A stretch of DNA of 50,193 nucleotides. Origin: Trichocoleus sp. Its GTDB lineage: Bacteria; Cyanobacteriota; Cyanobacteriia; Elainellales; Elainellaceae. Shown piece after piece: positions 4,645 through 27,586 of this stretch (positions are counted from its first letter, which is position 1; the number at the start of each line of letters is the position of its first letter). The notes beneath the pieces are model-generated. The model did not search any database, was not told where the DNA came from, and was given only the letters and a program-made list of their open reading frames with translations. The stretch is from positions 1 to 50,193 of the forward strand of contig DATNQD010000031.1 in NCBI GenBank assembly GCA_036702865.1. The letters run 5' to 3'. Made by a program: the position numbers and the translations under genes.

Positions 4645-4661
4645 TCAGGTTTTTGGACTAC
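4613..4661 (-). terminator. Possible transcript-end hairpin of the left structural operon
   Basis: GTAGTCCAAA (4613-4622) and TTTGGACTAC (4652-4661) are a perfect 10-bp inverted repeat spanning the stop codon of the last leftward gene. The loop is 29 nt and no U-tract follows, so it may act as an RNA-stabilising 3' end rather than a strict rho-independent terminator. Confidence 0.35.
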
Positions 4662-7093: not shown

Positions 7094-7602
7094 GCTATTG
7101 AGATCGGATCGTCAAACTCGTACAGGATGGAGGTTGTAGAAAGGGCATAGCCGAGCGTTTGTATGATGTGCCCGGATGCGGTTGGAGCGGTTGCAGATGC
7201 CTTTCCTGCGTTTGAGGCAGAAAGAAACATAATTGTGCCCTCTCCCAGTCCTGTGAGCGCTGTATTCTCTCCTTGCTGATAAACGGTTACTGTTCCCGAA
7301 AGGGCAACCGCAGCAAGCACAAATCCGTTTGCAGGTCTGTTATTTGATGCGTCAGCTTTGCGAACGTTCCTGATTCCGGTGTTGCTCCAAATATTGACAA
7401 AATCCCCTGCTGATAATGCTTCTGAGGCAACGATCTGAGATGCCGAAACCCCCACACCTACGGGCATAAAAGAGGAATCTAATTTGCCATTGCTGCCAGT
7501 GGCGACGATTTTGTTAGCATCCCCAGCCCCCACGGATGCAGCAATGGCGGTTGCTAAGGTTTTCCCGTTTCCGAGAAAGGTTAGAAATTTATTTGTACTC
7601 AT
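7090..7602 (-). CDS. Virion surface-type protein sharing the fibre adaptor
   Basis: The preferred start MSTNKFLTFLG at 7602 overlaps the stop of the upstream gene (ATGA), giving 170 residues. The N-terminus (K.LATAIAASVGAGDANKIVAT..GKLD) is the same adaptor as in the fibre gene beside it. The C-terminus (SGHIIQTLGYALSTTSIL) resembles a beta motif common in phage decoration and baseplate-associated proteins. The two neighbours probably dock on the same structure. The stop overlaps the fibre gene's start by 4 bp. Confidence 0.72.
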   Translation of the reverse strand: MSTNKFLTFLGNGKTLATAIAASVGAGDANKIVATGSNGKLDSSFMPVGVGVSASQIVASEALSAGDFVNIWSNTGIRNVRKADASNNRPANGFVLAAVALSGTVTVYQQGENTALTGLGEGTIMFLSASNAGKASATAPTASGHIIQTLGYALSTTSILYEFDDPISIA

Positions 7603-8273
7603 AAAAACCAAGGCTCCTGAATCTCAAAATCTATCTCCGTGGGGCTTTTGGCTGTTCCAACCTGCAAGATAAACCCGATGGCTGGGGCTGATTGGCTCAT
7701 CATTCCAGCAATGCCCAAGTAGATCGGCTGCCCTGGCTGCCAGTTCCACCCCGAATCACTCACCCTTCCCTGAATTAAGGGACTGGTTCGATTGCCCTGT
7801 TCAACTGCTTTTAGGGAAAGCCCCACCACTTGAAAGGCTTGTAGTGCATCGTCAGAGCTTGCGTAGAGTAGCCCCTCCTCAACTTCTCGCAGCACCCGCA
7901 ACGCTGAAAGGTCGATCGCGGCTGTCGTCTCTGGCAGAAATAGCTGATAGGCTCTCTGCTCTGCATGGACGATGGGGATGTCAGAAACCTCGATCCTTAC
8001 GGTCCAACCGGGAGAAAGCGGAGATTTGCGAACTGCGATTCGGCGCTCACTCCAAAAACTGGGTTGTAAAAAATCGAGGATATGATCGACTGCCGAAGTC
8101 AGTTTACGAGCATCGAAAATCTCAGTGGTGGGAGAGGTTCGGGCTTGGGCAACCATCATTCGAGGGTTTACAGGTGGGTTGACCCACTGAACCCGGAAAT
8201 ATTCCCCTTCTACTGGCTCTGTGTACTGCCAGTAGTCGGTTAACTGAAGCTCTTTAACCAAAGCCCAACTCAT
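7599..8273 (-). CDS. Structural-operon protein with phage-type C-terminal beta motif
   Basis: This 224-aa protein has an unassigned N-terminal part of about 165 residues. Its C-terminal segment (WQPGQPIYLGIAGMMSQ followed by GFILQVGTAKSPTEIDF) looks like the final beta motif of the next gene's product and of various phage structural proteins. The start overlaps the upstream stop by 4 bp and the stop overlaps the downstream start by 4 bp. It is likely a component of the attachment apparatus, inferred from these neighbours. Confidence 0.7.
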   Translation of the reverse strand: MSWALVKELQLTDYWQYTEPVEGEYFRVQWVNPPVNPRMMVAQARTSPTTEIFDARKLTSAVDHILDFLQPSFWSERRIAVRKSPLSPGWTVRIEVSDIPIVHAEQRAYQLFLPETTAAIDLSALRVLREVEEGLLYASSDDALQAFQVVGLSLKAVEQGNRTSPLIQGRVSDSGWNWQPGQPIYLGIAGMMSQSAPAIGFILQVGTAKSPTEIDFEIQEPWFL

Positions 8274-8764
8274 ACCCCACCATCAAAAGCATCCGCGAAT
8301 GATTCGATCTGAACCTCAAGATCGTTGAATCGCTGGAATTGGTCAATATCAATGCCATCGTATCGCCAGATTTCAACAAGCATCCTTTGATGCCAGCGAG
8401 GAATCTGAACTTCGAGAAACCAGGGACGATCGAGCTTTGGCAGAATCCATAAATTCAGAACCCCTAGCCGTAGGCTGCGACGATTAGCCACCACTGACGG
8501 CTGAAATTCTGAAGTTGAGGAGGGAGTGAAGGAGAGCCGTTGTGTTGCCCATCCCCCTAAGTACCAGGATGCGGGCGCGCGATCGTTCTTCATGCCGATC
8601 GCAATCACGTTGGAATCAATGAGAAAAGTCTGAGGGGGAATGTAATAGCTGATCCGTCGTCGTGCCCCGCTGACAACTTCCTGCCCTTCATAGAGCTGCC
8701 GTCGAACGAGGTTCCATTCAAGGCGATCGGTGAGCTGGGGGAGCTGCCGCTCATTCCCATTCAT
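8270..8764 (-). CDS. Hypothetical structural-operon protein (164 aa)
   Basis: No family is recognised. The product is aromatic- and Arg-rich and predicted to be beta-rich (RISYYIPPQTFLIDSNVIAI). Its ATG lies 14 bp inside the preceding gene, and its stop overlaps the next start. The coupling places it in the particle-assembly operon, but no role can be assigned. Confidence 0.7.
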   Translation of the reverse strand: MNGNERQLPQLTDRLEWNLVRRQLYEGQEVVSGARRRISYYIPPQTFLIDSNVIAIGMKNDRAPASWYLGGWATQRLSFTPSSTSEFQPSVVANRRSLRLGVLNLWILPKLDRPWFLEVQIPRWHQRMLVEIWRYDGIDIDQFQRFNDLEVQIESFADAFDGGV

Positions 8765-8984
8765 CAGGCTCTACCTCGTCAATCTCCCCCAGGCGCTCGT
8801 CATACTCTCCCCCCTCCAAATATTCGTCCAAAGCTGCCCCGAACACTGGCTCTAGAAGACCAGAACCAGACCGGGCAACGAAGGCGAACTCTCCCCCCGA
8901 TGAATTCGCCACATCCAGCCACCCCGGAGGCAAAGCAGCCCCCAGCGTAGCGTTAAACAAAGGATGTCCAGGAAGGATAAGCAT
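8751..8984 (-). CDS. Small acidic hypothetical protein (77 aa)
   Basis: The protein starts MLILPGHPLFNATLGAALPP and ends in a strongly acidic tail (Glu and Asp in about half of the last 25 residues). No family is recognised. It lies 3 bp downstream of the preceding stop and overlaps the following gene by 14 bp. Its acidic, small nature would suit a chaperone or an assembly adaptor, but this is speculation. Confidence 0.65.
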   Translation of the reverse strand: MLILPGHPLFNATLGAALPPGWLDVANSSGGEFAFVARSGSGLLEPVFGAALDEYLEGGEYDERLGEIDEVEPDEWE

Positions 8985-8987
8985 AGG

Positions 8988-9653
8988 TTACGGAGCAGGA
9001 GCAGCCGCAGCAGAGAGCAGGCGAGGATCAGAATTAACTCGCCAAGTATCGGTTGATTGAAGGTCTGATTTTTTCTCTGGAGCGTAGAAGCTGGAGAAAG
9101 AAGATCCGTTTTGCAGCGTCTTGGTAGCTTTTCCGGGTTTGGGCAAGCTGGAACCCACGACCAGACGATCCAATTCAGCCGGAGAGTTAACAGAAGCCGC
9201 ACTCTTTAGCCCCAGGTCTGCCCCGTAGGTCTGGAAATCGGCTTCATTCATCGGGAAACAGTACAGCGGACCGTTTGCGCTGAGTTCTACCACTGCCGTC
9301 ACCGATCGACCGCTGGAGCGGAGTGGGACAGATCGCCCAGCCTTTTGAAAAGTCCAGCCAGCACTAAGCGCTCCAGCTAGCTTGTCATAGCCGCAGAAGG
9401 TGCTAATCGACCCCTGACCCGATCCAGTTGTGCTGATGCGCTTGCTCACTCTTGGGGGCTTGGGCGCATTTGCACCAAGGACTAGGAGAGTTCCAGCCGC
9501 AGGTGTGGAGATGTGCCCCAACGCAGTTAGATCAGCAGCCGTTACACCCGCAAGGGCAGAAAAGTCTTTGGTCTTGAAACCGTAGTAAAGGACGTTATTG
9601 CATTTGACATAAGCTAACTGATCTCGCCGCCGACCCCGTGTATATGAAGGCAT
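8988..9653 (-). CDS. Hypothetical protein, candidate abundant virion component
   Basis: The 221-aa product has a basic N-terminus (MPSYTRGRRRDQLAYV) and then a predominantly beta, Gly/Ser/Thr-rich body. It ends in an Ala/Pro tail. It shows no signal peptide, membrane segment or catalytic motif. As a mid-sized beta-rich protein near the start of the left operon it is a candidate shell or major structural protein, but no capsid fold can be recognised by eye. It lies 11 bp after the previous stop. Confidence 0.7.
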   Translation of the reverse strand: MPSYTRGRRRDQLAYVKCNNVLYYGFKTKDFSALAGVTAADLTALGHISTPAAGTLLVLGANAPKPPRVSKRISTTGSGQGSISTFCGYDKLAGALSAGWTFQKAGRSVPLRSSGRSVTAVVELSANGPLYCFPMNEADFQTYGADLGLKSAASVNSPAELDRLVVGSSLPKPGKATKTLQNGSSFSSFYAPEKKSDLQSTDTWRVNSDPRLLSAAAAPAP

Positions 9654-9664
9654 TTGTAACGCTC

Positions 9665-10171
9665 CTAGACGTCTAAGTATTCTTTAGCGAAGATCACGAT
9701 CGCACCGTCTGTTCCCAGTGCGATCGTGATCGGCAGTTCAAAAGAGCCTTGATAAAGCTCTAAATCACTGTCGTAAGTGCCCCTGATGGCTCTTTTCTGC
9801 TGGGGATTCTTGGCAGGGTTCCGCTCCAGAAATTGAATGCGCTTCAAAACCTCTAGCAGATAGGCTTCTGGACGGAGGCTTTTAAAGGTTGGATTATCCG
9901 CTCCAGGCTCGATAGAAATGCCTTGCAGGTATGGAACCGCTTTAATAACGATTTCCCCTGATTCATTTGTACTTTCCTGAGCTGGAATCGAATAATTTCC
10001 AGAGAAAACCTTCTTCTCAGAATCGACTGAACCCTTCACCCCTTTGATGTATTCGGGGTTCGTGTGGTCGTCTGCTTCCGCAAGTGCCATAAAAAACAGC
10101 ACTTCTAGCAAACGACCCTCGATCGACCTTTGTTTGAAGGTTCCGCCCAAACCTGGAGCAATTGAACTCAT
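9665..10171 (-). CDS. Hypothetical protein, first gene of the longer left operon
   Basis: This 168-aa protein contains two similar blocks: GVKGSVDSEKKVFSGNYSIP (about 43-62) and RAIRGTYDSDLELYQGSFEL (about 128-147). Each is followed by a short beta segment ending near EIVIKAVPYL or GAIVIFAKEYL. This suggests an internal duplication of a beta unit. No family is recognised. It starts an uninterrupted run of eight further leftward genes, and the 194-bp gap upstream should hold its promoter. Confidence 0.7.
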   Translation of the reverse strand: MSSIAPGLGGTFKQRSIEGRLLEVLFFMALAEADDHTNPEYIKGVKGSVDSEKKVFSGNYSIPAQESTNESGEIVIKAVPYLQGISIEPGADNPTFKSLRPEAYLLEVLKRIQFLERNPAKNPQQKRAIRGTYDSDLELYQGSFELPITIALGTDGAIVIFAKEYLDV

Positions 10172-10294
10172 AAGATCCTTAAGATTCCCAATTAGAAAAG
10201 ATGTGCCTTTTGGTAGATGCCTTATTCGCTAGAACAAATTTAGACATCCCGACAAATTGAAACAAGACGAGGTAAACACGGAGAAGCACGATAG

Positions 10295-10312
10295 AAAACC
10301 CTAAGGGTTTTT
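10295..10312 (-). terminator. Rho-independent terminator between two leftward units
   Basis: AAAACCC (10295-10301), a TAA loop and GGGTTTT (10305-10311) form a short symmetrical hairpin flanked by A and T tracts on either side. It lies downstream of the leftward 116-aa and 64-aa genes and upstream of the gene starting at 10171, separating two transcription units. Confidence 0.6.
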
Positions 10313-10365
10313 CAATTGCACAGACCCGAATGCGGCTTAATCAATCTTTACAATTAGCTTGCTTA

Positions 10366-10560
10366 TTAGAGCAAGGACTGCCTAAGTTCATGCAGCCGCT
10401 CCCTAACGTCTGCCTCAGAAATTCCTAGCTCCTGGCTGAGTCGTTCGAGCAGTACCTTTCTCGGTTGGTACTGATAGGGATGCCCAAACCGCTTACGCCT
10501 GCGTTGCAGACTCCGACGACTCCGAGTAGACAATCTAGACCAAAGATCGTGATGCCTCAT
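10366..10560 (-). CDS. Small highly basic protein (64 aa)
   Basis: The product is Arg-rich (RSRRSLQRRRKRFGHPYQYQ) with a helical C-terminal half (LLERLSQELGISEADVRERL). A GGAGTAAGGA ribosome-binding site precedes the ATG. It lies 9 bp after the 116-aa gene. The charge suggests nucleic-acid binding, for example genome condensation or late regulation. No family is recognised. Confidence 0.65.
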   Translation of the reverse strand: MRHHDLWSRLSTRSRRSLQRRRKRFGHPYQYQPRKVLLERLSQELGISEADVRERLHELRQSLL

Positions 10561-10569
10561 TCCTTACTC

Positions 10570-10920
10570 CTATACCGTCACCGCTGCGGTGCTATCCCGG
10601 TTCAACGGAACTAAAACGCTGATGTTGTGAGTAAAAACGACATACCAATTCCCCTGATTGTCTTGCTGGGGTATCCCTGCAATGGGCTGAGGAAATGAGT
10701 TTAGATCAGTTGATGCACTCTCATTAAAGGTGTTTTGAGCTTTTGTGCAAGCACTGAGAAGTTTCGAGATAGCTTCTGAAACCTTTGGATCAGAAAGGGT
10801 GAGTGAGGGTTCATTCATCAGCGCTTTAAGTGAAATCAAAATGTCATTATTTGCTGAATCAGCAGATAATGCCCCATCAGGTAAAGCCGCTTGTAGATTT
10901 GCAAAGCTGAGATCAGTCAT
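10570..10920 (-). CDS. Hypothetical protein (116 aa), first leftward gene
   Basis: The N-terminal 75 residues are helical and low in charge (LPDGALSADSANNDILISLK). The C-terminal 40 residues look beta-rich (NQGNWYVVFTHNISVLVPLN). No family is recognised. It starts 56 bp from the divergent 270-aa gene, so it is the first gene read leftward from the shared promoter. Confidence 0.65.
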   Translation of the reverse strand: MTDLSFANLQAALPDGALSADSANNDILISLKALMNEPSLTLSDPKVSEAISKLLSACTKAQNTFNESASTDLNSFPQPIAGIPQQDNQGNWYVVFTHNISVLVPLNRDSTAAVTV

Positions 10921-10976
10921 GGTTAGAAAACCCGGTTTATTGAGTTAGATTTAACTAGAAAGTTTCTGCTTCTAAT
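10921..10976. promoter_or_regulatory. Shared divergent promoter region of the structural genes
   Basis: Only 56 bp separate the start codons at 10920 (minus) and 10977 (plus). The gap holds an inverted repeat AGTTA-GATT-TAACT (10943-10956) in AT-rich sequence, suited to a regulator that switches both operons together. Exact -10 and -35 boxes cannot be fixed by eye. Confidence 0.5.
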
Positions 10977-11789
10977 ATGCCCTCTCCACTTCAATCTTTC
11001 TCAAGAAGCGTCAACATTGCAAAGAAATTTGATCACTCAACTGGACAGGGTTTGACTATTTTGTATCAGCCTGCTTTGCTCAATCAGTGGGATAGGGCAA
11101 CGACAAAAAGATATTACGGATTCATCACTGATTTAAGGGCAAAAATTGATATTAAATCAGTTGCGGAGGCTGGGATTCCAGAGGTTGACGTAACCTCGAC
11201 TAGAGCAGAACGGCTTACTGCTGTGCGTGATGTTGAGTGGAATTCTCCACGAAAACAACTAGATATTTTGCTCAAAAAAAGCGATTCCCCTTTGATTCAT
11301 ATCTGCGCGATATCGCTTTTAAATAGGTATCCTTACTATCAAGTTCCCTTGCTTTCATTCCTTACTGACAATGGGGTTTTTTCAATTGGAAACGATACTA
11401 TCCTCTACGCAAAAGTAACCGATGTTGGGTATGGAGGTTTGTTTAACCCTGACGAGATAACAATCTATGGGGCAGTAAAAGAAGAGGTTACTGTACTCCC
11501 AGACCAGCCGCGAGAAATCAGTTTCGCTCAATCGTATGAATGGGCGATCAGTGACACTTCTCAAATGATCTTGCCCCCCAACCCTCACCGCTTGCAGTTA
11601 ACGCTCGTCAACCAGGGAAGCAATCCGATCTGGCTCAACTATGGAGCGCTGGCTGAGGCTGGGAGGGGGATTGCATTGATGCCCAGCGGGGGAAGCTATG
11701 AGATAAACCAAACCAACCCCTATCAGGGAGCCGTCGCTGCAATCAGCGAAGGGATTGGGTCAAGTCTTTCAGGTTTGGAGGCTGTTTAG
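10977..11789 (+). CDS. Hypothetical structural-operon protein (270 aa)
   Basis: The protein is beta-rich and soluble. Its C-terminal 90 residues contain RLQLTLVNQGSNPIWLNYGA, a pattern seen in jelly-roll-like minor capsid or spike proteins. No family assignment is possible. It is the first gene of the right structural operon, and its TAG stop overlaps the next GTG start (TAGTG). Confidence 0.68.
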   Translation: MPSPLQSFSRSVNIAKKFDHSTGQGLTILYQPALLNQWDRATTKRYYGFITDLRAKIDIKSVAEAGIPEVDVTSTRAERLTAVRDVEWNSPRKQLDILLKKSDSPLIHICAISLLNRYPYYQVPLLSFLTDNGVFSIGNDTILYAKVTDVGYGGLFNPDEITIYGAVKEEVTVLPDQPREISFAQSYEWAISDTSQMILPPNPHRLQLTLVNQGSNPIWLNYGALAEAGRGIALMPSGGSYEINQTNPYQGAVAAISEGIGSSLSGLEAV

Positions 11790-11980
11790 TGCAAAAGGCA
11801 ACTAACCTACTTCAGCCAGAATCCCCAAATCAGGCTCTAGCCCTATTTGAGGAAATTCTGAGCCCCCCTTTATTCCAATGTGGTGCAGTGGAGCAAGAGA
11901 TCATGAGGCTCAAGTTGGCTAACTTCAAACCAGCTCTGACATCGACTTATCAGGGAGTTAATAAGGAGCGAATCATCTAA
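11789..11980 (+). CDS. Small helical protein (63 aa)
   Basis: It starts with GTG overlapping the previous stop by one base and ends with TAA overlapping the next ATG by one base. That tight coupling supports it as real. The product appears helical and carries no recognisable domain (QALALFEEILSPPLFQCGAV). Confidence 0.6.
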   Translation: MQKATNLLQPESPNQALALFEEILSPPLFQCGAVEQEIMRLKLANFKPALTSTYQGVNKERII

Positions 11981-13812
11981 TGGTTGAATATGACCCCCCA
12001 GGCGTTGACGATGCCCCAGGCTTTCCTATCCGTGACTGGCTCACCCCAGTCGGTGACACTGGGCTATACATCAGTCCTTTAGACCCTGTAGACCCTTGGG
12101 ACTGCGACCGCTACCCAAATTCCCCCTACTGCAACAATGTGATCGAACCGAACGATTCTTTTGATTCGGAAGACCTGACAAGCTTGTTGCCCACTGTCGC
12201 AGGAGTCAGCCTGGGAGATCTGATCAACGTCGAGCCTTTCACCCTTCAGCCTGGATTCTCCATCAATGAATGTGAGGTGTGCTTCGACCTGGATGGAACC
12301 TTTTTCTATCTGCCGACCGCAACTTGGTCGATCTGCTATCGTCGCGCAAGTTGCCGGAATCCACCCGACCCCCCACCCCCCCCAGGCTTGCCCCCTCCCG
12401 ATGGTGGATCAATCCCCTGGACTGACCGATTCCCCAACTGTGAAAAGGTAGCCAAGTTTGAGCGCAAGCTCCACCGAGATGCTTTTATCGTGCGGGGTAC
12501 TGGGGAAGTTGTCCCAGTCGTTCACAGTCCCACGGAAATTTTAGTTACTCGCATTGATGAATCGAACGTGATTCTGGGTGAGATCGCAGGCTTTGAATGG
12601 TCTGTGAGCTATACAGAATCCCCCGGTTTGCATGGAATTATTGACCCCTCCTTTTACTGGAATTTTTACGTTATCCGCCCCAACGGGAATAAAGAGACAA
12701 TTTACTCTGCCCAGCCTACCTACTACGTTCCCAGCGCTCCCGGCACAACTCGATCCTTCCCTGCTCCGTTGCCCCGATTTATCGGAGTTGAATTAGTCCC
12801 CGGTCAGCCCTCACCCTGCAACTCAATCAGCTTTCCCTTTCCTCACCCCATCCCACCCCCACCTATCCCACCACAAGACATGAACTGCAATTGTTGCACA
12901 GACACAGAAGACTTGCTCAGATTGATCGCTCGTCGGTTAGGGACTGCATCCTATCCCGTTAAAGTGCCAGAATACTTGGTCACGAATCAGGGAAATAGAT
13001 CAATCAATATTGAGTCCCTGACTCAATTTGTCACCTGGATCACCTATCAACTGGACGCTTTGGCCGGAGAGTTTCCCGTAGAAATTGAGATAAAGGATAT
13101 CGATCCAGCAACAGAAGGAGATCAAAAGCAAAAGGTTAAATTATTCAATATTGCCGAGAGCCTAGCAGAGATGTACGCATTAACTGTGAAGAACACGGTT
13201 AACTCTGATGTACACACAAATTTCTTGATAAGAATGGTCAGTGAACTGATAGCGACAAAGAACGCAACGCTGATCACGCAAGACTACGCGAAAGCAAATG
13301 CAGACTTTTTAGGATATGAAGGCAACCCAACAAGGAGAAAGATTCCATACTCGTTTGATGTAGAGGGAAGGGAAAGTTTAGATAAGCTTTTGAAGAATAG
13401 CGAGAAAGAAATAGAAGGATGGGAAAGCAAGACAAAAGATACTGCCTTGGAATACTTTCACCGCTTAATGTTTGCGGCTGGAATTATCAAAGCTGTGTAC
13501 TATCGCACACCCAGAGATTTAGATCGAATGATGAAAGAATTGGAGAGAGCGATCGACCCTGATGGAGACGACGCAGTAAGGGACGATGCAGCCTGGGACG
13601 CATTCCTAAATGCAATTAATGACCCTGCAAACCGCTTTAATCAGAATGCGCCTAAGCCTAAGATTGTTGATCCTAAGAAGGCAGAGAGGGAAGCAAGGAA
13701 ACAACGAAACGCTCAACGGAATCAACCTCCAGCGAATAGCGATCCAACGAACCAACCTGGGCAACCTGGGCAAGATGGCAGATTCAATAATTTAGACGGA
13801 GGGGGCAGATAA
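11980..13812 (+). CDS. Large proline-rich structural protein (610 aa)
   Basis: The N-terminal 320 residues are beta- and Pro-rich, with clustered cysteines (about 36-115, then CNCC near 305). There are two polyproline linkers, at about 128-138 and 287-301. Residues 320-560 are mainly helical and include a run of charged helices. The last 40 residues are a disordered Asn/Gln/Pro/Gly tail (NSDPTNQPGQPGQDGRFNNL). The protein is cytoplasmic or virion-internal; no signal peptide is visible. It is the largest protein of the element and could be a vertex, portal-like or scaffold component. No family is recognised. Both ends overlap neighbours by one base. Confidence 0.7.
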   Translation: MVEYDPPGVDDAPGFPIRDWLTPVGDTGLYISPLDPVDPWDCDRYPNSPYCNNVIEPNDSFDSEDLTSLLPTVAGVSLGDLINVEPFTLQPGFSINECEVCFDLDGTFFYLPTATWSICYRRASCRNPPDPPPPPGLPPPDGGSIPWTDRFPNCEKVAKFERKLHRDAFIVRGTGEVVPVVHSPTEILVTRIDESNVILGEIAGFEWSVSYTESPGLHGIIDPSFYWNFYVIRPNGNKETIYSAQPTYYVPSAPGTTRSFPAPLPRFIGVELVPGQPSPCNSISFPFPHPIPPPPIPPQDMNCNCCTDTEDLLRLIARRLGTASYPVKVPEYLVTNQGNRSINIESLTQFVTWITYQLDALAGEFPVEIEIKDIDPATEGDQKQKVKLFNIAESLAEMYALTVKNTVNSDVHTNFLIRMVSELIATKNATLITQDYAKANADFLGYEGNPTRRKIPYSFDVEGRESLDKLLKNSEKEIEGWESKTKDTALEYFHRLMFAAGIIKAVYYRTPRDLDRMMKELERAIDPDGDDAVRDDAAWDAFLNAINDPANRFNQNAPKPKIVDPKKAEREARKQRNAQRNQPPANSDPTNQPGQPGQDGRFNNLDGGGR

Positions 13813-15377
13813 TGCCCACGGAGATCAAGCGTCAGAACTTGCTGAGTCGTGCAACTAAAATTGCTGTAACACAGGGCAAGCCTCGCTTAATTGATTTGAC
13901 AAACCGACTGGCACAACAGCAGACCGGAGGGAATGCAATTGTCCAGGCGATTAACTGGATTTTCAATCAGGGAGGGCGATTAGTAGGCTTTGTTTCTAAT
14001 GTTGTGGGCAGCATTCTAAGCCGGATCAACTTTACTACTGTGTTTCGCTGGATCGTCAGCGCTGCAACAGTTATTGTGAATTTCGACTGGAACGCTACCG
14101 ACGCATCTCTTAAAGCCCAGATGCACGCTAGGAATAGAGCAATTGCGGCAAGCTGGGGAGGGACGATCGGCGGCGCACTTGGTTGGACTGCATCGATCGC
14201 ACTCGGATCAGGGATTGCAATGCTTGTGCCTGTGATCGGAGGCTCAACCCTGGCTCGGTTGGTTGCAACGGAGGGAGCAGCCGAGGCACTACCGGAAATT
14301 CTGAGCCTACTAAAAAACTCGCTGAGGCTGACGGCTCAAAACCTTGGGGCGAATGCTGCCAGTGTTGCTTATATCAACTTTCGCAAGATGGTAAAAAGCG
14401 CCCCGCTGGGACTGCTGCGCCGATTCTTTGGAGATCAGGCGGCTGCATATATCAAGGATAAATGGGGGGCAGAAGGTCAGCCCAGCTTCACGATCGCTGG
14501 GGCTATCGACAATGCGATCAGCAACTTGCCTGGGGGAGATTTAGTTCAAGCATTTTTCGAGGAAGCCTGGGAGGAATTCTGGGACGCATTTGTGGAGGGA
14601 GGCTTCATAGTTGCAGGCACTCTTGACGAAGCAATGGCAGAAGCCAAGGCAGGTGCAAAACAGGCAATGGGGCACGATGAAACGGTTCTGGTAATTCCCA
14701 ATAAGGAAACACCCACAGAAGCCTACGCGATCACAGGTAAGCGTGAGCTGTTGAAGGAGGAGATTCAATCCGTGATTCACGGATATCGAAACACCTACAA
14801 CAAAGACATAGGGCAGATCGTAGGACTTCCCGCTCAAGACTGGTATCGAGCGCAACCCCACCGTAGAAAAATAACAATCATATTTAAGGACAAAGAAAAG
14901 CCACCCTGGAGGCATCCGAATGGGGGCGGCTGCAAAACTGCCACTTATACTATCCCTGAAGCAAAAGCGGGCTTAAGTTGGAGCCAGATCAAGGGGGCTG
15001 CATCTACCTATGATTGGGGCAAATTCCGGGCAACTGCCAACCTGAAAAGCGGTCGGCAAATGGCGGTTTATGGTGCTAGTGCCAGAGAAGCTGAGAAGAA
15101 ACTGAAACAACTCCTTCAACTCAGCACAGATGAGATCGTATCGTTGACAACTAGCGAGGAGAAGGAGCGCAACCCCAAGTTAAGAAAAGACCAAACCCGG
15201 ATGTATCCAGCGTTTGTGACTTATTTGGTGAGGCGACCTTCAACCGATATGCAGGGACGCACCGACCTGGAGGGCAACACCTGGGACTCTGAGCATAAGC
15301 GTTTTGAATTGTGGACAGAGACAGAACCCCCCGACTTCAGCCGGATTTTTGGCGCTCCGAGAGGGGGGAATAGCTGA
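13812..15377 (+). CDS. Large membrane-associated structural protein (521 aa)
   Basis: Hydrophobic segments lie at about residues 56-90 (GFVSNVVGSILSRI, VFRWIVSAATVIVNF) and 114-143 (GGTIGGALGWTASIALGSGI). An amphipathic Ala-rich region follows. The C-terminal 250 residues are soluble and basic (KITIIFKDKEKPPWRHPNGG). Such a protein inside a structural operon would fit a viral inner membrane protein or a genome-delivery pore. It overlaps its neighbours by one base on each side. No family is recognised. Confidence 0.7.
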   Translation: MPTEIKRQNLLSRATKIAVTQGKPRLIDLTNRLAQQQTGGNAIVQAINWIFNQGGRLVGFVSNVVGSILSRINFTTVFRWIVSAATVIVNFDWNATDASLKAQMHARNRAIAASWGGTIGGALGWTASIALGSGIAMLVPVIGGSTLARLVATEGAAEALPEILSLLKNSLRLTAQNLGANAASVAYINFRKMVKSAPLGLLRRFFGDQAAAYIKDKWGAEGQPSFTIAGAIDNAISNLPGGDLVQAFFEEAWEEFWDAFVEGGFIVAGTLDEAMAEAKAGAKQAMGHDETVLVIPNKETPTEAYAITGKRELLKEEIQSVIHGYRNTYNKDIGQIVGLPAQDWYRAQPHRRKITIIFKDKEKPPWRHPNGGGCKTATYTIPEAKAGLSWSQIKGAASTYDWGKFRATANLKSGRQMAVYGASAREAEKKLKQLLQLSTDEIVSLTTSEEKERNPKLRKDQTRMYPAFVTYLVRRPSTDMQGRTDLEGNTWDSEHKRFELWTETEPPDFSRIFGAPRGGNS

Positions 15378-15772
15378 TGCCAATTGTCAATCCTGGCTCA
15401 AGCTCTAGCAACGGGCAACAATGGCAACAAAAGCAAGCGACGATCGCCACTGAGGAGATCGGAACGAATGCACAATCCTTGGTACTGCTGCCGATCGGGT
15501 TCAGCGTCATCTATCGGATTAAGTTTTTCAACCCCACCCGATTGAGGCTTTATTCATCTACAGCCGATCGTGATAGCGACCAGGCGCGACCCGTTGCCAA
15601 TAATCCCAGCGCTGGAGCTGGGCTGCTGCTGGAGCTGGTAGGGAATGCTGATCTTGATTTCAATCTCTCCCCGCTGGTCTGGATTCCCTCAGCCGATGGG
15701 ATCCCAGCCACGATCACAAACTTGTCTACCTCAACCTCAATCAATTTTTCAATTTACTACTGGGGGATCTAA
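15377..15772 (+). CDS. Small beta-rich structural protein (131 aa)
   Basis: After a Ser/Gln-rich N-terminus the protein is strongly beta-predicted, with an aromatic C-terminus (TSINFSIYYWGI) typical of small jelly-roll or spike subunits. No family is recognised. The start overlaps the preceding TGA (TGATG), and the next gene starts immediately after its stop. Confidence 0.65.
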   Translation: MPIVNPGSSSSNGQQWQQKQATIATEEIGTNAQSLVLLPIGFSVIYRIKFFNPTRLRLYSSTADRDSDQARPVANNPSAGAGLLLELVGNADLDFNLSPLVWIPSADGIPATITNLSTSTSINFSIYYWGI

Positions 15773-16585
15773 ATGCCTGTATCTCTAACTGAAGTAACGC
15801 TCAATCCTCCTTTCACCGTTGCCAGTTTGGGGGATGCTCTCAAGACTGCTTGCGCTGCGGCTGGACTGGGGAACCCGATCGCGGATTTTTCCCAGTTTGG
15901 CTACGATCGAACGCTGGTCTATGCCGTGGTCACTGACGCTTCAAAGGCTTATGGGACGCAATATCTAAGGCTGATGATCAGCCCTAACGGAACCCGTTTT
16001 GATGTGGCGCAAACCCTGCATAGTGAGTTCGATTTAGAAGACACTACTTTTCCTGGCTATGGAGGGGGGGAGAGTTCATGGTTACTTCGACCCGAAACGC
16101 TCCAGATCAAGAGTTTTGCTTCAGCGGAATTTAAGTTAATTGGGCTTTATCAGGCGAGGCTAGGAAATTTCACACTCCTGGGCACACTTCGACCCACGAT
16201 CCAGCCTGCCTACTGGGATGAGAATATATCTCAATTCCTGCTGATCAATATCAATGAATCAGGCAACATTCCCGCTTCTGCCTGGAGTCTCAGCGATATT
16301 TCCCCATATGCTTACACTGGGATAAGGTTCGGTTTTGAGTCGTTCCCATCGAAGAAAAATCCTTTTACCAATCAAGCCGATCTGCTTGCTGGCGTTGCCT
16401 TATACCCTATTGACCCATCTGGAATTTTTGGGATATGCTCCCCTGATCTGGTGCTGGCTTCCGATGGCAATCTGAATTTAGGGGATGTCATCACACTCCC
16501 CGACAATAAGCGCTATTACTGCTTCGTGAAGCCCACAAGCGCGAATTATGCCATTCCTTTGCTGAGGATTTCAGATGCTACTTGA
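15773..16585 (+). CDS. Hypothetical structural-operon protein (270 aa)
   Basis: A mainly beta protein with no signal peptide, membrane helix or catalytic motif (GYDRTLVYAVVTDASKAYGT near the N-terminus, LGDVITLPDNKRYYCFVKPT near the C-terminus). Its size is identical to the first gene of this operon, though I see no clear sequence similarity. It may be a virion subunit. It overlaps the small following gene by 11 bp. Confidence 0.65.
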   Translation: MPVSLTEVTLNPPFTVASLGDALKTACAAAGLGNPIADFSQFGYDRTLVYAVVTDASKAYGTQYLRLMISPNGTRFDVAQTLHSEFDLEDTTFPGYGGGESSWLLRPETLQIKSFASAEFKLIGLYQARLGNFTLLGTLRPTIQPAYWDENISQFLLININESGNIPASAWSLSDISPYAYTGIRFGFESFPSKKNPFTNQADLLAGVALYPIDPSGIFGICSPDLVLASDGNLNLGDVITLPDNKRYYCFVKPTSANYAIPLLRISDAT

Positions 16586-16775
16586 TCCAGCTTCTACCTT
16601 ACTAAATGGGCAATTAGCCCACACTGCAATCTTATTTGGCGTGCCAACTGCTCCCACTGGGCAAGATGGGCAGAACTGCCGACTGCCGACTGATCTCTCT
16701 ACAATCTGTCGATTCCAGCAGTCCCCACCCCCAGCGCCAACGCCCATCACTGAGGGGCAGATCTTTCCCCGGTAG
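16575..16775 (+). CDS. Short proline-rich protein at operon end (66 aa)
   Basis: The ATG lies within the last codons of the 270-aa gene, as with other coupled genes here. The product is Pro/Thr-rich with a possible hydrophobic N-terminal half. It runs into the convergent membrane-protein gene (overlap 16747-16775). It may be genuine because of the coupling, but it is short and unassigned. Confidence 0.45.
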   Translation: MLLDPASTLLNGQLAHTAILFGVPTAPTGQDGQNCRLPTDLSTICRFQQSPPPAPTPITEGQIFPR

Positions 16776-17361
16776 CAAACGATTTTTTGTGTGAGCCTTT
16801 CCAGTAGTAAAGACTGAATGTTGTGATGAACCATAACCACCAAAGCTGAAATATTGTCTCTAACGCATATCCTTTAGGTGAAACATAGAACTCATCAAAA
16901 GTTCGTATTCCTGAATGGAAAGAGATGTGTAAAAAAATAATGATTGCTAAAGGGAAAGAAGCGGCGATAGCAATCCCATAATTCTTTAAAGCCTGCTCTT
17001 TTGAGCAGAATGGACGTGCCCACTGAGGAGGCTTAGACCACATGATTTTAAGTAATATCGAGTAGAAAAATCCCAAAAACAAGTACCATAGCAACCCAGT
17101 TAAAAGAATCAAAATTCCTATCAAAACAAGTACGGTGAATGGGATTGGGTTTAATGCTGCAATTGAAGTCGCTACCCCTAGAAAAATTGCTATCCAGAAC
17201 CATACGCCAAATAAGACAACTCCTAAAGCATATGCAGAGATGAACAACTTAAATGCATGAGAGAGAGCCGATATAAATTTCATTGGGAATACTGGAGTTA
17301 ATACAAAAAGCCAAAGCCGCTCAATTGCACCCTGAGTGGCTTTAATTTTTAGGATTCCCAA
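16747..17361 (-). CDS. Polytopic membrane protein (204 aa or shorter)
   Basis: At least four hydrophobic segments are visible, including LFGVWFWIAIFLGVATSIAA, VLVLIGILILLTGLLWYLFL, IAIAASFPLAIIIFLHISF and IFQLWWLWFITTFSLYYW. No transporter motif is recognised. The longest frame uses TTG at 17361; the first ATG is at 17283 (MKFISALSHAF), and neither has a good ribosome-binding site. It lies downstream of the terminator of the morphogenesis operon, so it has its own promoter or is a separate accessory gene. Confidence 0.65.
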   Translation of the reverse strand: MGILKIKATQGAIERLWLFVLTPVFPMKFISALSHAFKLFISAYALGVVLFGVWFWIAIFLGVATSIAALNPIPFTVLVLIGILILLTGLLWYLFLGFFYSILLKIMWSKPPQWARPFCSKEQALKNYGIAIAASFPLAIIIFLHISFHSGIRTFDEFYVSPKGYALETIFQLWWLWFITTFSLYYWKGSHKKSFATGERSAPQ

Positions 17362-17367
17362 TTAAAA

Positions 17368-17387
17368 AGCGGCTATCTCTAGCCGCT
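17368..17387 (-). terminator. Rho-independent terminator of the leftward morphogenesis operon
   Basis: AGCGGCTA (17368-17375), a TCTC loop and TAGCCGCT (17380-17387) form a perfect 8-bp stem. On the minus strand it is followed by TTTTTAATT, a proper U-tract, 20 bp after the stop of the M23/SLT gene. Confidence 0.85.
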
Positions 17388-17407
17388 GGTAGTGTGTTCA
17401 CCTGAAA

Positions 17408-18502
17408 CTATTGAAAGTTGCTGCAAACAGACTCAGTGTAAGCTTTGATGCTGGGATAGCCTGCTTGAGGTGCATCACTATCTTTCAAGGATGGATCACC
17501 CGAATACCATTGAGCCGCTACACTCCTACAGGCATCAAAATCGCCTTCACCGCGTTCTTTAGCAGCATTCCAATACTCTTTCAGTTTGCAGGAAACAGTT
17601 TGCTTTTGGGCAGTTTCATCCGTTGCAAATGCATCAGATGAGAGCGATTTACCCAAACATTGCTCAGTCCAGTTCGATACATTCTCAGGCATGACCTGGC
17701 CAATGCCGATCGCTCCTGAATCTGCATTGATGGCAGTGTGGTCACCGCCACTCTCTTGCTGGATAATTGCCTGGTAAAGCTTGTCAGTTGCATCCCCAAA
17801 CCCCTTTTCAGCCTTGAATCCGTAAGGTTTAGGGGATTTTCCCTGGAGTACCCACCAAAGGAACCCTTCCGTTGGGTGAACGTGCTGCCCATCTTTCAAC
17901 TGTTCCCAGTGCAGGTGTGGTCCTGTTGAGTTGCCGCTGTCGCCCGTGGTTCCCCAAACTTGTCCCTCTTTAAACTCTCCAGACTCGCACTTATCTAAGT
18001 GCATCGCTCGAAACGTGAACTCAATGGTTGACGGTGTGAGCGTAGCGACTAGACCACCGCCGCTATCCTGTTGGCATTCAACCTTGAGAGAGCCGCCAAA
18101 TGCATAAAGCTGAGTCCCTGTTGGAGTCGCAAGGTCCACGCCTCGATGCTCTGTGCTGGCTCCCTCTTTTGGTGCAGTACGCTCACCATACCCACTCGTT
18201 ACCGAATAGCCGTCAATCTGAGCACCTTCCTGAATCTCCTTGGAGTAGATGGGGTCAAGAGTGCCAGTCGTTCCCAAGATGGTGTTCATGGGGTCGTTGA
18301 TGAGCGAGACAAGGGAGGGATAGAGATACATGATTAGGAAAATGATCCAGGCAATGATGAGCCGAATCATTGCAGCATTGCTGCTACTGCTTTCCCTGGA
18401 CTTGCGGCTCTCTCCCTTCAATCCTTTCAGGATTCGGTTGTGTTCCTTCAACAGGTCGATCAGTTGACTCTGAAAATCCTCCTGTGGCTTGCTGGCTACC
18501 AT
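17408..18502 (-). CDS. Membrane-anchored M23 peptidase / lytic transglycosylase
   Basis: The 364-aa product (ATG at 18502, behind TGAGGA; a longer TTG start at 18517 is less likely) has three parts. A cytoplasmic coiled segment (1-42) precedes a transmembrane helix (about 46-66). An M23-type metallopeptidase domain follows (His119 and Asp123 in HRGVDLA; His196 and His198 in GPHLHW). The last part is a soluble lytic transglycosylase-like domain with catalytic Glu250 (IIQQESGGD) and the GAIGIGQVMP motif. It would cut both peptide and glycan bonds of peptidoglycan. It is last in the leftward operon and should serve DNA entry, particle egress or wall remodelling. Two wall-cutting activities on one anchored protein also occur in conjugation systems, but no other transfer gene is present. 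Confidence 0.85.
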   Translation of the reverse strand: MVASKPQEDFQSQLIDLLKEHNRILKGLKGESRKSRESSSSNAAMIRLIIAWIIFLIMYLYPSLVSLINDPMNTILGTTGTLDPIYSKEIQEGAQIDGYSVTSGYGERTAPKEGASTEHRGVDLATPTGTQLYAFGGSLKVECQQDSGGGLVATLTPSTIEFTFRAMHLDKCESGEFKEGQVWGTTGDSGNSTGPHLHWEQLKDGQHVHPTEGFLWWVLQGKSPKPYGFKAEKGFGDATDKLYQAIIQQESGGDHTAINADSGAIGIGQVMPENVSNWTEQCLGKSLSSDAFATDETAQKQTVSCKLKEYWNAAKERGEGDFDACRSVAAQWYSGDPSLKDSDAPQAGYPSIKAYTESVCSNFQ

Positions 18503-18623
18503 TGCGCTGATCCTCAATCCTGACTCCGTAAGGTTCTAAAAATTTGGGCACGTCTGCGATGCGTAGCTGGTGCAAGCAAAAGGCAATGAGAATGCACCAT
18601 GCGGCTTGTTCAAAAACGCTCAT
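18384..18623 (-). CDS. Small one-helix membrane protein overlapping the lysin gene
   Basis: The ATG overlaps the preceding stop (TGATG). The 79-aa product has one N-terminal hydrophobic helix (AAWCILIAFCLHQL) and a charged, Gln-rich disordered tail. It overlaps the M23/SLT gene by 119 bp in another frame. A helix plus hydrophilic tail next to a wall hydrolase suits a holin- or spanin-like partner, though the overlap alone could also reflect a spurious frame. Confidence 0.5.
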   Translation of the reverse strand: MSVFEQAAWCILIAFCLHQLRIADVPKFLEPYGVRIEDQRNGSQQATGGFSESTDRPVEGTQPNPERIEGREPQVQGKQ

Positions 18624-18856
18624 CAGTTGCGCTCCTGGTAGGCTGGGCCATATTGTGGTTGCCCAACTTGCCCACTATTAGGGTTGTAAGGAACAACGAG
18701 CCGGGGTTGTTGCCCTGAAGTGCCACCATTGAGGGTGTAACCACCAATATCTCTGAGGCGATCGGCTCCTGCATTCACATCGACGGTGATCACCCGATCG
18801 CTCAACAGACGCATACCAATTAGAGCCAGTGCAACGAGTCCAATCGTCTTAAGCAT
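18623..18856 (-). CDS. Small membrane-anchored protein (77 aa)
   Basis: Starting at the ATG at 18856, which overlaps the end of the ATPase gene by 8 bp and follows GGAGAAATC, the product has one N-terminal helix (MLKTIGLVALALIGMRLL). A Gly/Pro/Gln-rich exposed part follows. No family is recognised. The coupling indicates function together with the ATPase. Confidence 0.65.
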   Translation of the reverse strand: MLKTIGLVALALIGMRLLSDRVITVDVNAGADRLRDIGGYTLNGGTSGQQPRLVVPYNPNSGQVGQPQYGPAYQERN

Positions 18857-20099
18857 TGATTTCTCCTTCAGTTTCAGAATCAAATAGTTGTGTGAGTGTG
18901 ACCCATCGTGGATTTGAGTCATCACGCTTACCAAATTGGTCAAAACTTTGAGCAACTTTTGTTTTGCTCAGTCCTTCCGTTTTCATTGCCAAAATGCGAT
19001 CGCGGTTTTCTGCAATCCAGCGTTCATGCTCTGGCAACTCGTCTGAATATTTGAAGGTATACGTTGAGCTGCGCTTGTCTAGATTGTTCGGCAATACTAG
19101 AACCGCTGGCAACTCATTTGCTTCCCGGTAGATAAAGGCATACTTGCAGCCGGGGAAAGTAGCAATCGTATGACGTTTGCTCAGGAGTGGCTTAACGTCA
19201 AAGTCCAGTGGCAGCCTGTTAGTGGAGTCAGCAAGACTGCTCCCTAGTGCCCATAGATCCATCTGAGAGAGCAGTGAACTATCTACTTTGCTCATCTCTT
19301 TTTTGTAGGCTTTACTGCTGAGCGTGACGTTTACTTTATATTTGCGTAGCTCATCCAGAACGAATTGCACAACATCCACAACATACTTGGCATCCTCATC
19401 CTTCAGCCGATTGATGAAGCCTTGCCATTCATCAATGATGATTTTGTACTCAGGATGATGAGTAGACTCTGATGCAATTCTGTCTAAGCCAATCTGCTCT
19501 AATTCACGGATGAAAGCTAATCCCTCATCAACTTTGGTTGCCAAATAATCTGATGGAGGTACACCTGGGAGCCAGTCCCCATCCTCTTGATTGAAATGCA
19601 GATCGATGATTCGCAGAATGCCACTTGGCACTTCAGCTTTAAATCGTCTTGCTTCATAGCGGAGTAGGGTAGTCTTGCCCGTTCCCCTTCCTCCCAGTAC
19701 AAACTTAGGCGCGATGATCTTGGGTAGAGTTAGCCAACTATCATCTCGTTCAGCAACGGCTGCATCTAAAAACTGTTGAGCAACAGAGGGGATGCGGGGG
19801 AGCAAATATTGCTGAATTGCTGGTTCAGTCTTGCCAACAATCCAATTCAATGCCGGAGTGACAGCCTGATCGATTTCGTCAACAAAGTTCCCAACACTGT
19901 CGGCGTAATCAGTGAGGGTGAGTGATTGCCGCTGCTGCCTGCGAGCTGCACCCACCAATCCCAATGTTCCAGCCGCCGCCGCTCCCACTCCAGGCAAAAA
20001 TGGCATCTGGCTTGCTGTGACGATCGCAATTGATGAGAGGCAAGCGATCGCCAGATTCCCCAGCGCTACATCGAGCTTTGCACTACTGCTGTTCGTCAT
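18849..20099 (-). CDS. Membrane-anchored P-loop ATPase (packaging/FtsK-HerA-like)
   Basis: Numbered from the longest frame (ATG 20138), residues 28-66 carry hydrophobic segments, GGRGTGKT at 149-156 is the Walker A motif and IIIDEW at 233-238 is the Walker B motif. A probable sensor segment (VTLSSK) lies about 60 residues later. The preferred start MTNSSSAKLDV at 20099 follows GAGGAG and overlaps the upstream gene by 17 bp. A single compact ATPase with N-terminal membrane helices fits viral genome-packaging ATPases of the FtsK/HerA type or Zot-like assembly ATPases. It does not look like a large terminase or a VirD4 coupling protein. The C-terminus (about 370-429) includes a helix-turn-helix-like stretch (LSKTKVAQSFDQFGKRDDSN). 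Confidence 0.78.
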   Translation of the reverse strand: MTNSSSAKLDVALGNLAIACLSSIAIVTASQMPFLPGVGAAAAGTLGLVGAARRQQRQSLTLTDYADSVGNFVDEIDQAVTPALNWIVGKTEPAIQQYLLPRIPSVAQQFLDAAVAERDDSWLTLPKIIAPKFVLGGRGTGKTTLLRYEARRFKAEVPSGILRIIDLHFNQEDGDWLPGVPPSDYLATKVDEGLAFIRELEQIGLDRIASESTHHPEYKIIIDEWQGFINRLKDEDAKYVVDVVQFVLDELRKYKVNVTLSSKAYKKEMSKVDSSLLSQMDLWALGSSLADSTNRLPLDFDVKPLLSKRHTIATFPGCKYAFIYREANELPAVLVLPNNLDKRSSTYTFKYSDELPEHERWIAENRDRILAMKTEGLSKTKVAQSFDQFGKRDDSNPRWVTLTQLFDSETEGEINA

Positions 20100-20739
20100 T
20101 TTTCGCATACTCCTCTGTCGGTTTGGCATCTTGTTCAACCATTGCCCGTCGTTGACTTGCCCGAATCAAGAATTGCTCGGTGAACTCTCCCGCCTGGTAG
20201 GGTTCTGCCAAGCAATCTTTGGGCTGATTGTTGTACAACGCTTGGATTGCTCTGAGTGCTGCCAGTTGGTCGAGAATGGCGGCGCGTCCGGCTTGCTGAA
20301 GGTCGGCTGACCCGTTGAAGCCACCGCGCTGTGTGGTCAGCATCAGCAGTTCTGCATTTTGCGATTTGACTTTATCAAGCAAGAACTTTTCAGGGTTAGC
20401 GCCTGTTTTGTTCTGCTCATCCTTAGCAGTGGTCGAGAAGTAGTTGGTGCGTCCATCGGTTAAGCAGGCAGATTGGTGCTCTAACGCTTCAATCGCACTG
20501 GCTAAATAATGATTGCGCTGTGCCTCGATTTGGGAGGGCTTGTTGGGTACGTCCTCCACGGCTGGTTTTGCTTCGCCGCCTGGTGCGACCTGCCCAGATG
20601 GTACGAGCTGGATTGAGGAAAGCAGTTGTGCTGCTTTTTCTTGCTGACTTCGGCTCGCAGGAACGAGGGCTTGCAGCATCAGATAGAGGATCGTTCCTCC
20701 GGTTCCGAGCACAATAAGAAGTAGAAGTGTCCGTTTCAT
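20083..20739 (-). CDS. Membrane-anchored helical protein (218 aa)
   Basis: An N-terminal signal anchor (LLLLIVLGTGGTILYLMLQA) is followed by a Gln/Ala-rich, mainly helical extracytoplasmic or virion-internal domain. Three cysteines lie in the C-terminal part. No family is recognised. It precedes and overlaps the ATPase gene, suggesting a membrane partner of that enzyme. A repeat-rich gap of 135 bp lies upstream. Confidence 0.68.
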   Translation of the reverse strand: MKRTLLLLIVLGTGGTILYLMLQALVPASRSQQEKAAQLLSSIQLVPSGQVAPGGEAKPAVEDVPNKPSQIEAQRNHYLASAIEALEHQSACLTDGRTNYFSTTAKDEQNKTGANPEKFLLDKVKSQNAELLMLTTQRGGFNGSADLQQAGRAAILDQLAALRAIQALYNNQPKDCLAEPYQAGEFTEQFLIRASQRRAMVEQDAKPTEEYAKNDEQQ

Positions 20740-20896
20740 AGTGGTAACTAAAATCGCTGAAATGGTTAGTTCTTCGTTAGGGCAGTGAGTTACAGAAGCT
20801 TGGGAGAGTGATCTGGTAACTACTGCCCTAATCGGCTGAAAGGGTTAGTTCTGCTAAAGTTCGGCGTTTGGTAACTAGTTACCAGTTACCGTTTTC
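20740..20896. repeat. Repeat-rich intergenic segment, possible origin or control region
   Basis: TGGTAACTA occurs three times (20742-20750, 20814-20822, 20869-20877), and its inverse TAGTTACC adjoins the third copy. GGTTAGTTCT occurs twice in the context ATCG(G)CTGAAA(T/G)GGTTAGTTCT (about 20753-20773 and 20831-20852). A perfect 10-bp inverted repeat TTAGGGCAGT / ACTGCCCTAA spans 20777-20786 and 20822-20831. The density of repeats in a gap inside an otherwise overlapping operon suggests an initiator or regulator binding region or a structured RNA leader. Confidence 0.6.
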
Positions 20897-21204
20897 TGCA
20901 TTCGCTCAACCGCTGCAAGTAAAACGGCTTGCTGTTCCAGGTCAAGTCCTTGCAGCTCAGCTTCGGTGAAGATGGCTTGCTTCAGTTGCTCTTGCTGGCG
21001 CTTCCGCTTAGCACGCTGGGAGAGAGTGGCGATCGTTTCTCCAATCAGGACTCCACCCGCTGCACCAACAAAGATTGGGGGATTGGCTTGAGAGATGTGG
21101 AGCGATTGATTTCTGGGCAGATGGTTCACTTTCCAGATGAAGGTGTAAGCCCCTAGCACTGCCCCAAATCCACCGCATAAAGCTAGGAATATCAATCGTT
21201 TCAT
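20875..21204 (-). CDS. Small two-helix membrane protein (109 aa)
   Basis: The preferred start MKRLIFLALCGGF at 21204 follows AGAGGA by 5 bp. Two hydrophobic segments (FLALCGGFGAVLGAYTFIW and IFVGAAGGVLIGETIATL) are followed by a basic then acidic helical tail. The last codons contain two repeats of the downstream control region (ACGGTAACTGGTAACTAG). It could be a virion membrane or holin-like protein; no family is recognised. Confidence 0.65.
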   Translation of the reverse strand: MKRLIFLALCGGFGAVLGAYTFIWKVNHLPRNQSLHISQANPPIFVGAAGGVLIGETIATLSQRAKRKRQQEQLKQAIFTEAELQGLDLEQQAVLLAAVERMQKTVTGN

Positions 21205-21233
21205 GGGTTCCTCTTTAGGCTGTAGCAATCGAA

Positions 21234-27511: not shown

Positions 27512-27586
<75 letters not shown>

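Follow-up and report, generated by a model that had tools for sequence, protein, structure and literature searches.

What do two divergent, tightly packed operons of unassigned genes encode in a cyanobacterial genome? The question is raised by a stretch of 50,193 nucleotides of Trichocoleus sp. DNA (contig DATNQD010000031.1, here called the window), in which genes run in both directions from a gap near 10.9 kb. An earlier note had suggested that they code for a multiprotein particle. Both operons were found to lie inside an element of 27,345 bp integrated in a tRNA-Val gene, and their genes indeed look like those of a particle on a mobile element, judging from their co-recurrence in related loci, the correlated distances between their families and the predicted fold of one protein, K. 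There is good support for reading the block as the structural and entry module of a mobile element that is virus-like. Going one step further, we lean towards regarding both operons as a module for structure and host attachment in a family, so far undescribed, of small temperate virus-like cyanobacterial elements. The novelty of this family is judged from the database searches made here, and the word undescribed has its sole basis in a limited literature search, covering its sources in part, which found no description of the family. Genes are named by letter below: K, L and M in the right operon, J to D, b and a in the left.

The element is delimited by a 43-bp attachment (att) repeat, whose tRNA-distal copy (167-209) is an exact match to the copy at 27512-27554 over the 3′ part of tRNA-Val(gac) (27513-27586, minus strand), 27,345 bp away. 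A tyrosine integrase gene adjoins the repeat (26253-27371, minus strand; PF00589 at 1.3e-17 and Arm-DNA-bind_2, PF12167, at 4.5e-10). In 7 of the 55 sequences scanned, units of 12.6-20.3 kb are likewise bounded by tRNA-gene repeats of 26-53 bp, and genome G018 holds two tandem 15,374-bp units at tRNA-Leu(taa) whose identity extends over 15,431 bp. In all, ten bounded elements were obtained, with sizes of 12.5-27.3 kb (12.5-20.4 kb in nine of them); nine lie between repeats at tRNA genes and the tenth is a closed circle, contig L042 closing into a circle of 12,548 bp. Plasmids NZ_CP064893.1 and NC_019743.1 also carry M and were not counted among the ten. L and M are present in every bounded element (10/10), an integrase in nine, a match to the G profile in six and the ATPase family discussed below in one. 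By reading, other-type basic proteins replace G in loci L044, L050 and L084.

Among 291 genomes of the class, M occurs in 51, one of which is the window's genome, and in 36 of 130 genera. All 29 loci found by M alignment among named genomes carry cyanobacterial names, in keeping with the cyanobacterial origin of the window; Pseudanabaena sp. SR411, a cultured strain, has M on one contig. Around matches to M or K, 60 stretches were taken and family profiles were built; these loci are not all independent and include two overlapping G018 stretches, two loci each from several genomes and one added neighbour stretch. M is found in 56 of the 60, L in 54, D in 44, G in 40, K in 34, F in 31, E in 26 and INT in 25, followed by the rarer families I (24), J (19), HTH (18), H (13), TM (13) and PRIM (8); the numbers for M and K partly reflect how the loci were chosen, and that for D includes K members. 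The K profile gave 45/388, a count that is too high because many of its matches are weak and confined to the C-terminal domain, and a single-sequence search with K gave 19/145. The G profile matched in 5 of 21 genomes of the order, and the window's genome has a single match to the L profile. The earlier note held that homologues occurring singly in unrelated contexts, or enzymes, would speak against a particle. The related loci show a small set of repeated gene orders; L, M, G, K and F themselves recur together across the 60, and among the operon proteins that were scanned, none reached the cut-off of an enzyme family.

For each of the ten possible pairings of K, L, M, G and F, the distances of one family correlate with those of the other (r 0.60-0.84). 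Permutations reached values as high in 0 of 2000 cases for nine pairs and in 1 of 2000 for K-F, and shared host descent could contribute to the correlation. Close pairs of K, M, G, F and J have nonsynonymous divergence (dN) of 0.06-0.36 versus synonymous divergence (dS) of at least 0.6 or saturated, the exception being one F pair with a dS of 0.33; as far as sequence comparison can tell, these tested genes are under purifying selection. In loci L083 and L084, K, L or J is broken into several open reading frames (ORFs), a pattern expected of decayed copies or of errors in sequencing.

Structure prediction, which the earlier note had proposed as a check, was informative for one of the two proteins modelled with AlphaFold2, giving K a jelly-roll-like domain plus a beta domain and leaving M with no informative PDB match. 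K (10977-11789, plus strand) is a spike or shell candidate whose two domains span residues ~1-175 and ~184-270; its model has a mean predicted local distance difference test (pLDDT) of 89.9 and a predicted template-modelling score (pTM) of 0.61. In structure comparison with VIA-align, which warns that Z of 7-8 is common, the vertex spike P1 of corticovirus PM2 (2vve_B) tops its PDB list, with Z 10.2 over 88 residues at 2.6 Å (model residues 176-270), and a second P1 entry (2w0c_L) aligns over both domains, with Z 9.7 over 161 residues at 13.8 Å. Further matches are GGCX (Z 8.9) and the KHP40 cement protein (8.6; 119 residues, 5.5 Å, model residues 3-177). Virus coats matching the N-terminal domain are those of satellite tobacco necrosis virus (7.5), faba bean necrotic stunt virus (FBNSV; 7.5), satellite panicum mosaic virus (7.4) and geminiviruses (7.0-7.1). 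Foldseek returned 48 matches in BFVD at E <=0.001, the first several including tailed-phage proteins and the fourth being the putative major capsid protein of Wip1 (1.4e-5), which, as all of them, has a low TM-score over the whole model. A nodavirus-type coat was set aside for K: in the PDB, Foldseek lists PNGase (9.5e-5) and SIDT1 (2.5e-4) alongside nodavirus coats (1.0e-4, 1.5e-4), all at low TM-score. Double jelly-roll coats are absent from the first Foldseek PDB matches of K, from which nothing is concluded.

L (11980-13812, plus strand) has a conserved C-terminal part and an N-terminal part of variable length, which is fibre- or coiled-coil-like in some relatives and Pro/Cys-rich in the window. 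M (13812-15377, plus strand) combines a long-helix, partly hydrophobic N-terminal half with a well-predicted C-terminal alpha/beta domain (mean pLDDT 81.6, pTM 0.45). Two identifications of M were set aside: its PDB matches are helix-bundle background alone (best Z 8.2), and the viral protein A0A510E869, a nameless BFVD entry that no paper found in the literature search names, aligns at E 7e-6 over 510 columns but with TM-scores of 0.23-0.26. Sequence-profile searches of the PDB with M, G, K and L gave nothing credible.

The divergent layout described in the earlier note is correct, and its intervening gap of 56 bp (10921-10976) is exact. Right-operon junctions measure -1, -1, -1, -1, 0 and -11 bp, with TAGTG, TAATG and TGATG as claimed. 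From 8984 to 4645 in the left operon, the reported overlaps of 1-14 bp hold at five of six junctions (-14, -4, -13, -4 and -1 bp); the sixth is -58 bp, a value that relies on a TTG start, so the overlap may be smaller. The description 'almost gap-free' is too strong for the whole left operon, which contains a gap of 194 bp (10172-10365) and others of 3, 9 and 11 bp. The overlaps nevertheless exceed chance, since only 1 of 12 host neighbour pairs overlaps on the same strand (a hand-picked list from 27.6-50 kb of the same window). Fixed stoichiometry, which had been deduced from this coupling, is not supported: overlaps of 1 and 4 bp are common in compact operons and only some junctions stay tight in relatives, so tight coupling is no proof of it. 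A gap of at most 10 bp is kept in 42 of 54 L-M pairs (exactly -1 or -4 in 25), in 30 of 33 G-F pairs and, less tightly, in 9 of 13 F-E pairs, whereas close packing is not kept for K-L (4/27), J-G (0/15), H-G (0/8) or M-G (0/26). In 13 of the 27 K-L pairs the spacing is 157-220 bp, enough for a small ORF, and the window has one of 63 residues there (11789-11980, plus strand), which has no hidden Markov model homologue in the 60 loci. J or H is divergent from K in 11 loci. A promoter and terminator scan of 9600-11100 stayed at chance level.

The left operon, all on the minus strand, opens with J (10570-10920, 116 residues); two J-family proteins per locus flank M on both sides in L056, L059, L077, L079 and L095. 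It is followed by I (10366-10560), very basic with 64 residues, and by H (9665-10171), whose 168 residues are a tandem duplication of one domain (halves matched by hhalign at 99.4%). G (8988-9653, 221 residues) has a basic N-terminus and two tandem domain copies (98.9%) and may be considered a coat candidate; F (8751-8984, 77 residues) is acidic and kept close to G. E (8270-8764, 164 residues) is related to the N-terminal domain of D (hhalign probability 87%), and D (7599-8273) adds a C-terminal phrog_4368-type domain. In some phage records, D-matching proteins are named neck fiber, head decoration or structural protein. A protein of 173 residues with a phrog_4368-type domain (7090-7611; 7.7e-17) and a fibre- or receptor-binding-like protein of 596 residues (5303-7093) precede b (4998-5303, 101 residues) and a (4645-5055), which has one predicted membrane segment and homologues in 7 of the 60 loci. 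In the G018 unit, the homologue of a adjoins an M15 endolysin (phrog_894 at 4.9e-22); from its position alone, a may be holin- or spanin-like.

Downstream of M, the right operon continues with a 131-residue protein (15377-15772, plus strand), weakly matching two phage families of unknown function (phrog_15343 at 1.9e-4, phrog_9627 at 7.3e-4), and a 270-residue protein (15773-16585, plus strand) with one homologue among the 60 loci (L093). The ORF at 16575-16775 is doubtful: it extends 29 bp into the opposite-strand ORF 16747-17361 and has no homologue among the 60 loci. That opposite ORF encodes a predicted four-segment membrane protein beside the block, with homologues in 13 of the 60 loci and a possible exclusion or holin role. 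FHA-type proteins recur in the elements, at L101 13103-13879 (annotated) and, by reading, at L042 9584-10195 and as 207-residue proteins in L070; the G211 unit holds two copies of the 207-residue FHA-type protein. A primase-polymerase-like protein (24096-25688, plus strand) matches PF09250 at 0.012, below the cut-off, and has homologues in 8 of the 60 loci.

Two further genes of the element could be thought to serve packaging, namely an FtsK/HerA-like P-loop ATPase (18849-20138, minus strand; phrog_38189 at 6.6e-21) and an M23 peptidase with SLT transglycosylase and one predicted membrane segment (17408-18517, minus strand; Pfam 6.2e-11 and 9.3e-6). Relatives of the ATPase occur in Nostoc, Anabaena and Dolichospermum phages and near some other blocks: nine other block-holding sequences have one, namely plasmid L100 and eight loci (one match being weak), of which only a part is shown to lie inside an element, and as a single query it matched in 8 of 388 genomes. 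As a family-wide packaging motor, the pair was marked down, being in 1 of 10 bounded elements and also on a plasmid-like contig that has no block. That contig, L006, carries ParA; its 5078-9234 shares with window 17408-21228 the ATPase, the M23/SLT hydrolase and several small membrane-type proteins, and no other window protein matched there. L006 also encodes, at 17322-17534 and 19872-20141, small proteins with a hydrophobic segment and a common N-terminal DSAR(T/S)SGQFS, like filamentous-phage coats in size only. A further reason for marking down the pair is genome G104, where the ATPase lies ~14 kb from a terminase on one contig (G104:C73).

The G018 unit was searched for packaging genes in its own right. 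It has no terminase or head family among 20 proteins compared with PHROGs and 10 with Pfam, the best portal row being 0.046, in L; its matches are to integrase, regulator and endolysin families and, for L, to tape-measure families and baculovirus PEP_C (1.8e-13). No canonical Walker A motif is present in its 48 ORFs of at least 60 residues, and its 12 ORFs of at least 150 residues have two GK[ST] sites, both at protein ends and by reading no P-loops. Thus, at the level of sequence, the unit has no recognisable terminase. In G118 and L054, canonical Walker A motifs are confined to ORFs of 97 and 79 residues, and the motif matches in M of L044 and L050 look accidental. P-loop proteins of the other elements, the window ATPase excepted, are helicase-like (AAA_25 in L042) or unassigned.

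Links with tailed phages were seen for fibre-type parts. The window's genome holds a tailed prophage, G000:C39, with terminase (1.5e-35), portal (2.3e-7) and major head protein (2e-16). One of its proteins is 63% identical over 327 residues to residues 273-596 of the 596-residue protein, another, encoded beside a fibre-like gene, matches b (41% over 102 residues), and the 7090 protein finds short matches only (43% over 44 and 41% over 49 residues). In the prophage (L193 10208-12926), the homologues of 4998, 5303 and 7090 are flanked by the major head protein on one side and by a 2159-residue protein with a minor-head domain on the other; given this placement beside head genes, they may be head rather than tail fibres. 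A second terminase-type gene of the same genome, at G000:C70:20142-21392, possibly marks another tailed prophage. Eleven core profiles (E, F, G, H, I, J, K, L, M, D and a) have no match at E 0.1 in 20 kb of the G000:C39 prophage, nor in the stretches of phages A-1(L) and YongM that were examined. Exchange with tailed phages thus involves the fibre-type parts and, as far as these comparisons reach, leaves out the core. K, M and one G relative were compared with 50,697 phage records and matched none of them; two IMG/VR pattern scans likewise gave nothing for M.

Several observations weigh against a virus-like reading of the elements. No particle has been seen. Across the proteins of the window and the G018 unit, no major capsid protein, portal or terminase was recognised with PHROGs and Pfam, and the assertion that the capsid must be here is not shown: none of the proteins could be identified as the major capsid protein, and the head may be borrowed. 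The match of K to PM2 P1 is tied with the unrelated bacterial PA5104 (1yll, Z 9.7); the coat matches of its N-terminal domain (Z 6.4-7.5) are mixed with unrelated ones such as complement C5 (7.4), BcsB (7.2) and the lambda tail tip (6.7-6.9); its C-terminal domain is matched by small tailed-phage proteins, and all structural matches of K and M have low TM-scores. Six short candidate matches lack flanking direct repeats, and no CRISPR spacer was recognised among them. Finally, L of the G018 unit matches tape-measure families, at best 9.4e-7.

There are possible alternative explanations for these elements. A serious, if unlikely, one is that they are phage satellites packaged in the heads of a tailed helper, the operons supplying altered surface fibres, an entry protein and lysis functions and no capsid. 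Indeed, they are small integrated elements with an integrase and no recognisable packaging genes of their own; the bounded units hold integrase, regulator and replication-type protein with no recognised terminase, portal or capsid gene, and a tailed prophage sharing the 5303 and 4998 genes and short stretches of 7090 resides in the window's genome. However, the core profiles match neither the 20 kb of that prophage nor the stretches of the two Nostoc/Anabaena phages, and the phage records gave no match to K, M or the G relative. A PF03237 terminase, moreover, is found in 5 of the 10 genomes with a bounded element and is missing from G018, G015, G033, G211 and G066, though a lytic or unrecognised helper would escape this comparison. 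The terminase family phrog_2 matches all ten genomes (weakly in the PF03237-negative five) and is no discriminator, since it also matches 11 of 14 controls. Overall, we regard an own non-tailed particle as somewhat more likely than a helper's head.

It is improbable that the elements are tailed phages or relics with head and packaging genes that have diverged beyond recognition. The tape-measure matches, seen in 2 of 37 L members, and the fibre-type genes in common with tailed phages would fit this; against it, the G018 unit has no canonical Walker A or plausible GK[ST] loop and nine of ten bounded units are small, while the tape-measure matches fall in the coiled-coil-like part of L and may be compositional. 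Still less probable is a conjugative-type element in which the ATPase and M23/SLT protein move DNA and the operons code for surface appendages. The two genes stand together in the window and again on the plasmid-like contig with ParA, but nine of the ten bounded elements lack the ATPase family, the two related plasmids are classed as non-mobilizable, and the M15 protein and fibre domains match phage families. No relaxase or type IV secretion family scored above the cut-off in the Pfam-scanned window proteins, where no dedicated search was made. Least probable in our view is a host-domesticated particle, such as a delivery or signalling device: the genes are conserved and selected across many genera, but the linked integrase, the identical tandem copies and the varied tRNA sites show mobility.

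Returning to a virus-like element with its own particle, its parts could work as follows. K would be exposed at the surface of the particle, either as its vertex spike or as a protein of the shell from which one domain protrudes, and L would be a scaffold or fibre whose length varies. Receptor-binding parts may be carried by D, E and the 596-residue protein, and M would work at the membrane as the particle enters. G, together with the acidic F and the basic I, may form a coat or bind DNA, and the lysis genes would release the particles. A more specific form of this proposal, which we advance tentatively as a possibility and no more, is that the elements are unrecognised temperate non-tailed DNA viruses with a shell of K and/or G, motor-free packaging helped by I, and entry via M.

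Known systems resemble the elements in part. PM2 may be similar in its vertex spike, which leads the PDB list of K jointly with 1yll; it differs in that there is no sequence match and no double jelly-roll capsid protein is recognised in the elements by sequence, the K model, of the two proteins folded, showing a single jelly-roll-like domain. The integrase and primase-type genes also set the elements apart from the gene content of PM2. PICI (phage-inducible chromosomal islands), P4 and PLE (PICI-like elements) are the satellites used for comparison; satellites share the size, the tRNA sites, the combination of integrase, replication-type protein and regulator and the lack of a recognised terminase or portal, whereas in the elements some ten particle-like genes form a conserved block that includes fibre-type proteins. 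The tailed Nostoc/Anabaena phages N1, A-1(L), Elbi and YongM have an ATPase 28-30% identical to that at 18849, and such phages also have the phrog_4368-type domain of D, but A-1(L) and YongM are Caudoviricetes by record and no core profile matches their examined stretches. Tailless Vibrio prophages and double jelly-roll proviruses (PMC11630473, PMC5894146) are also small integrated elements and would be comparable if the non-tailed reading holds; they differ from the present elements, which have no recognised double jelly-roll protein and a packaging-type ATPase in one of the ten bounded cases.

M is carried by about one sixth of the sampled genomes of the class, yet is unmatched in phage records. 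If particles are made, the census of cyanobacterial phages misses a common group, and a virus with no recognisable terminase or capsid would make packaging a direct question. If the elements are satellites instead, they would be satellites that code for their own surface and entry proteins.

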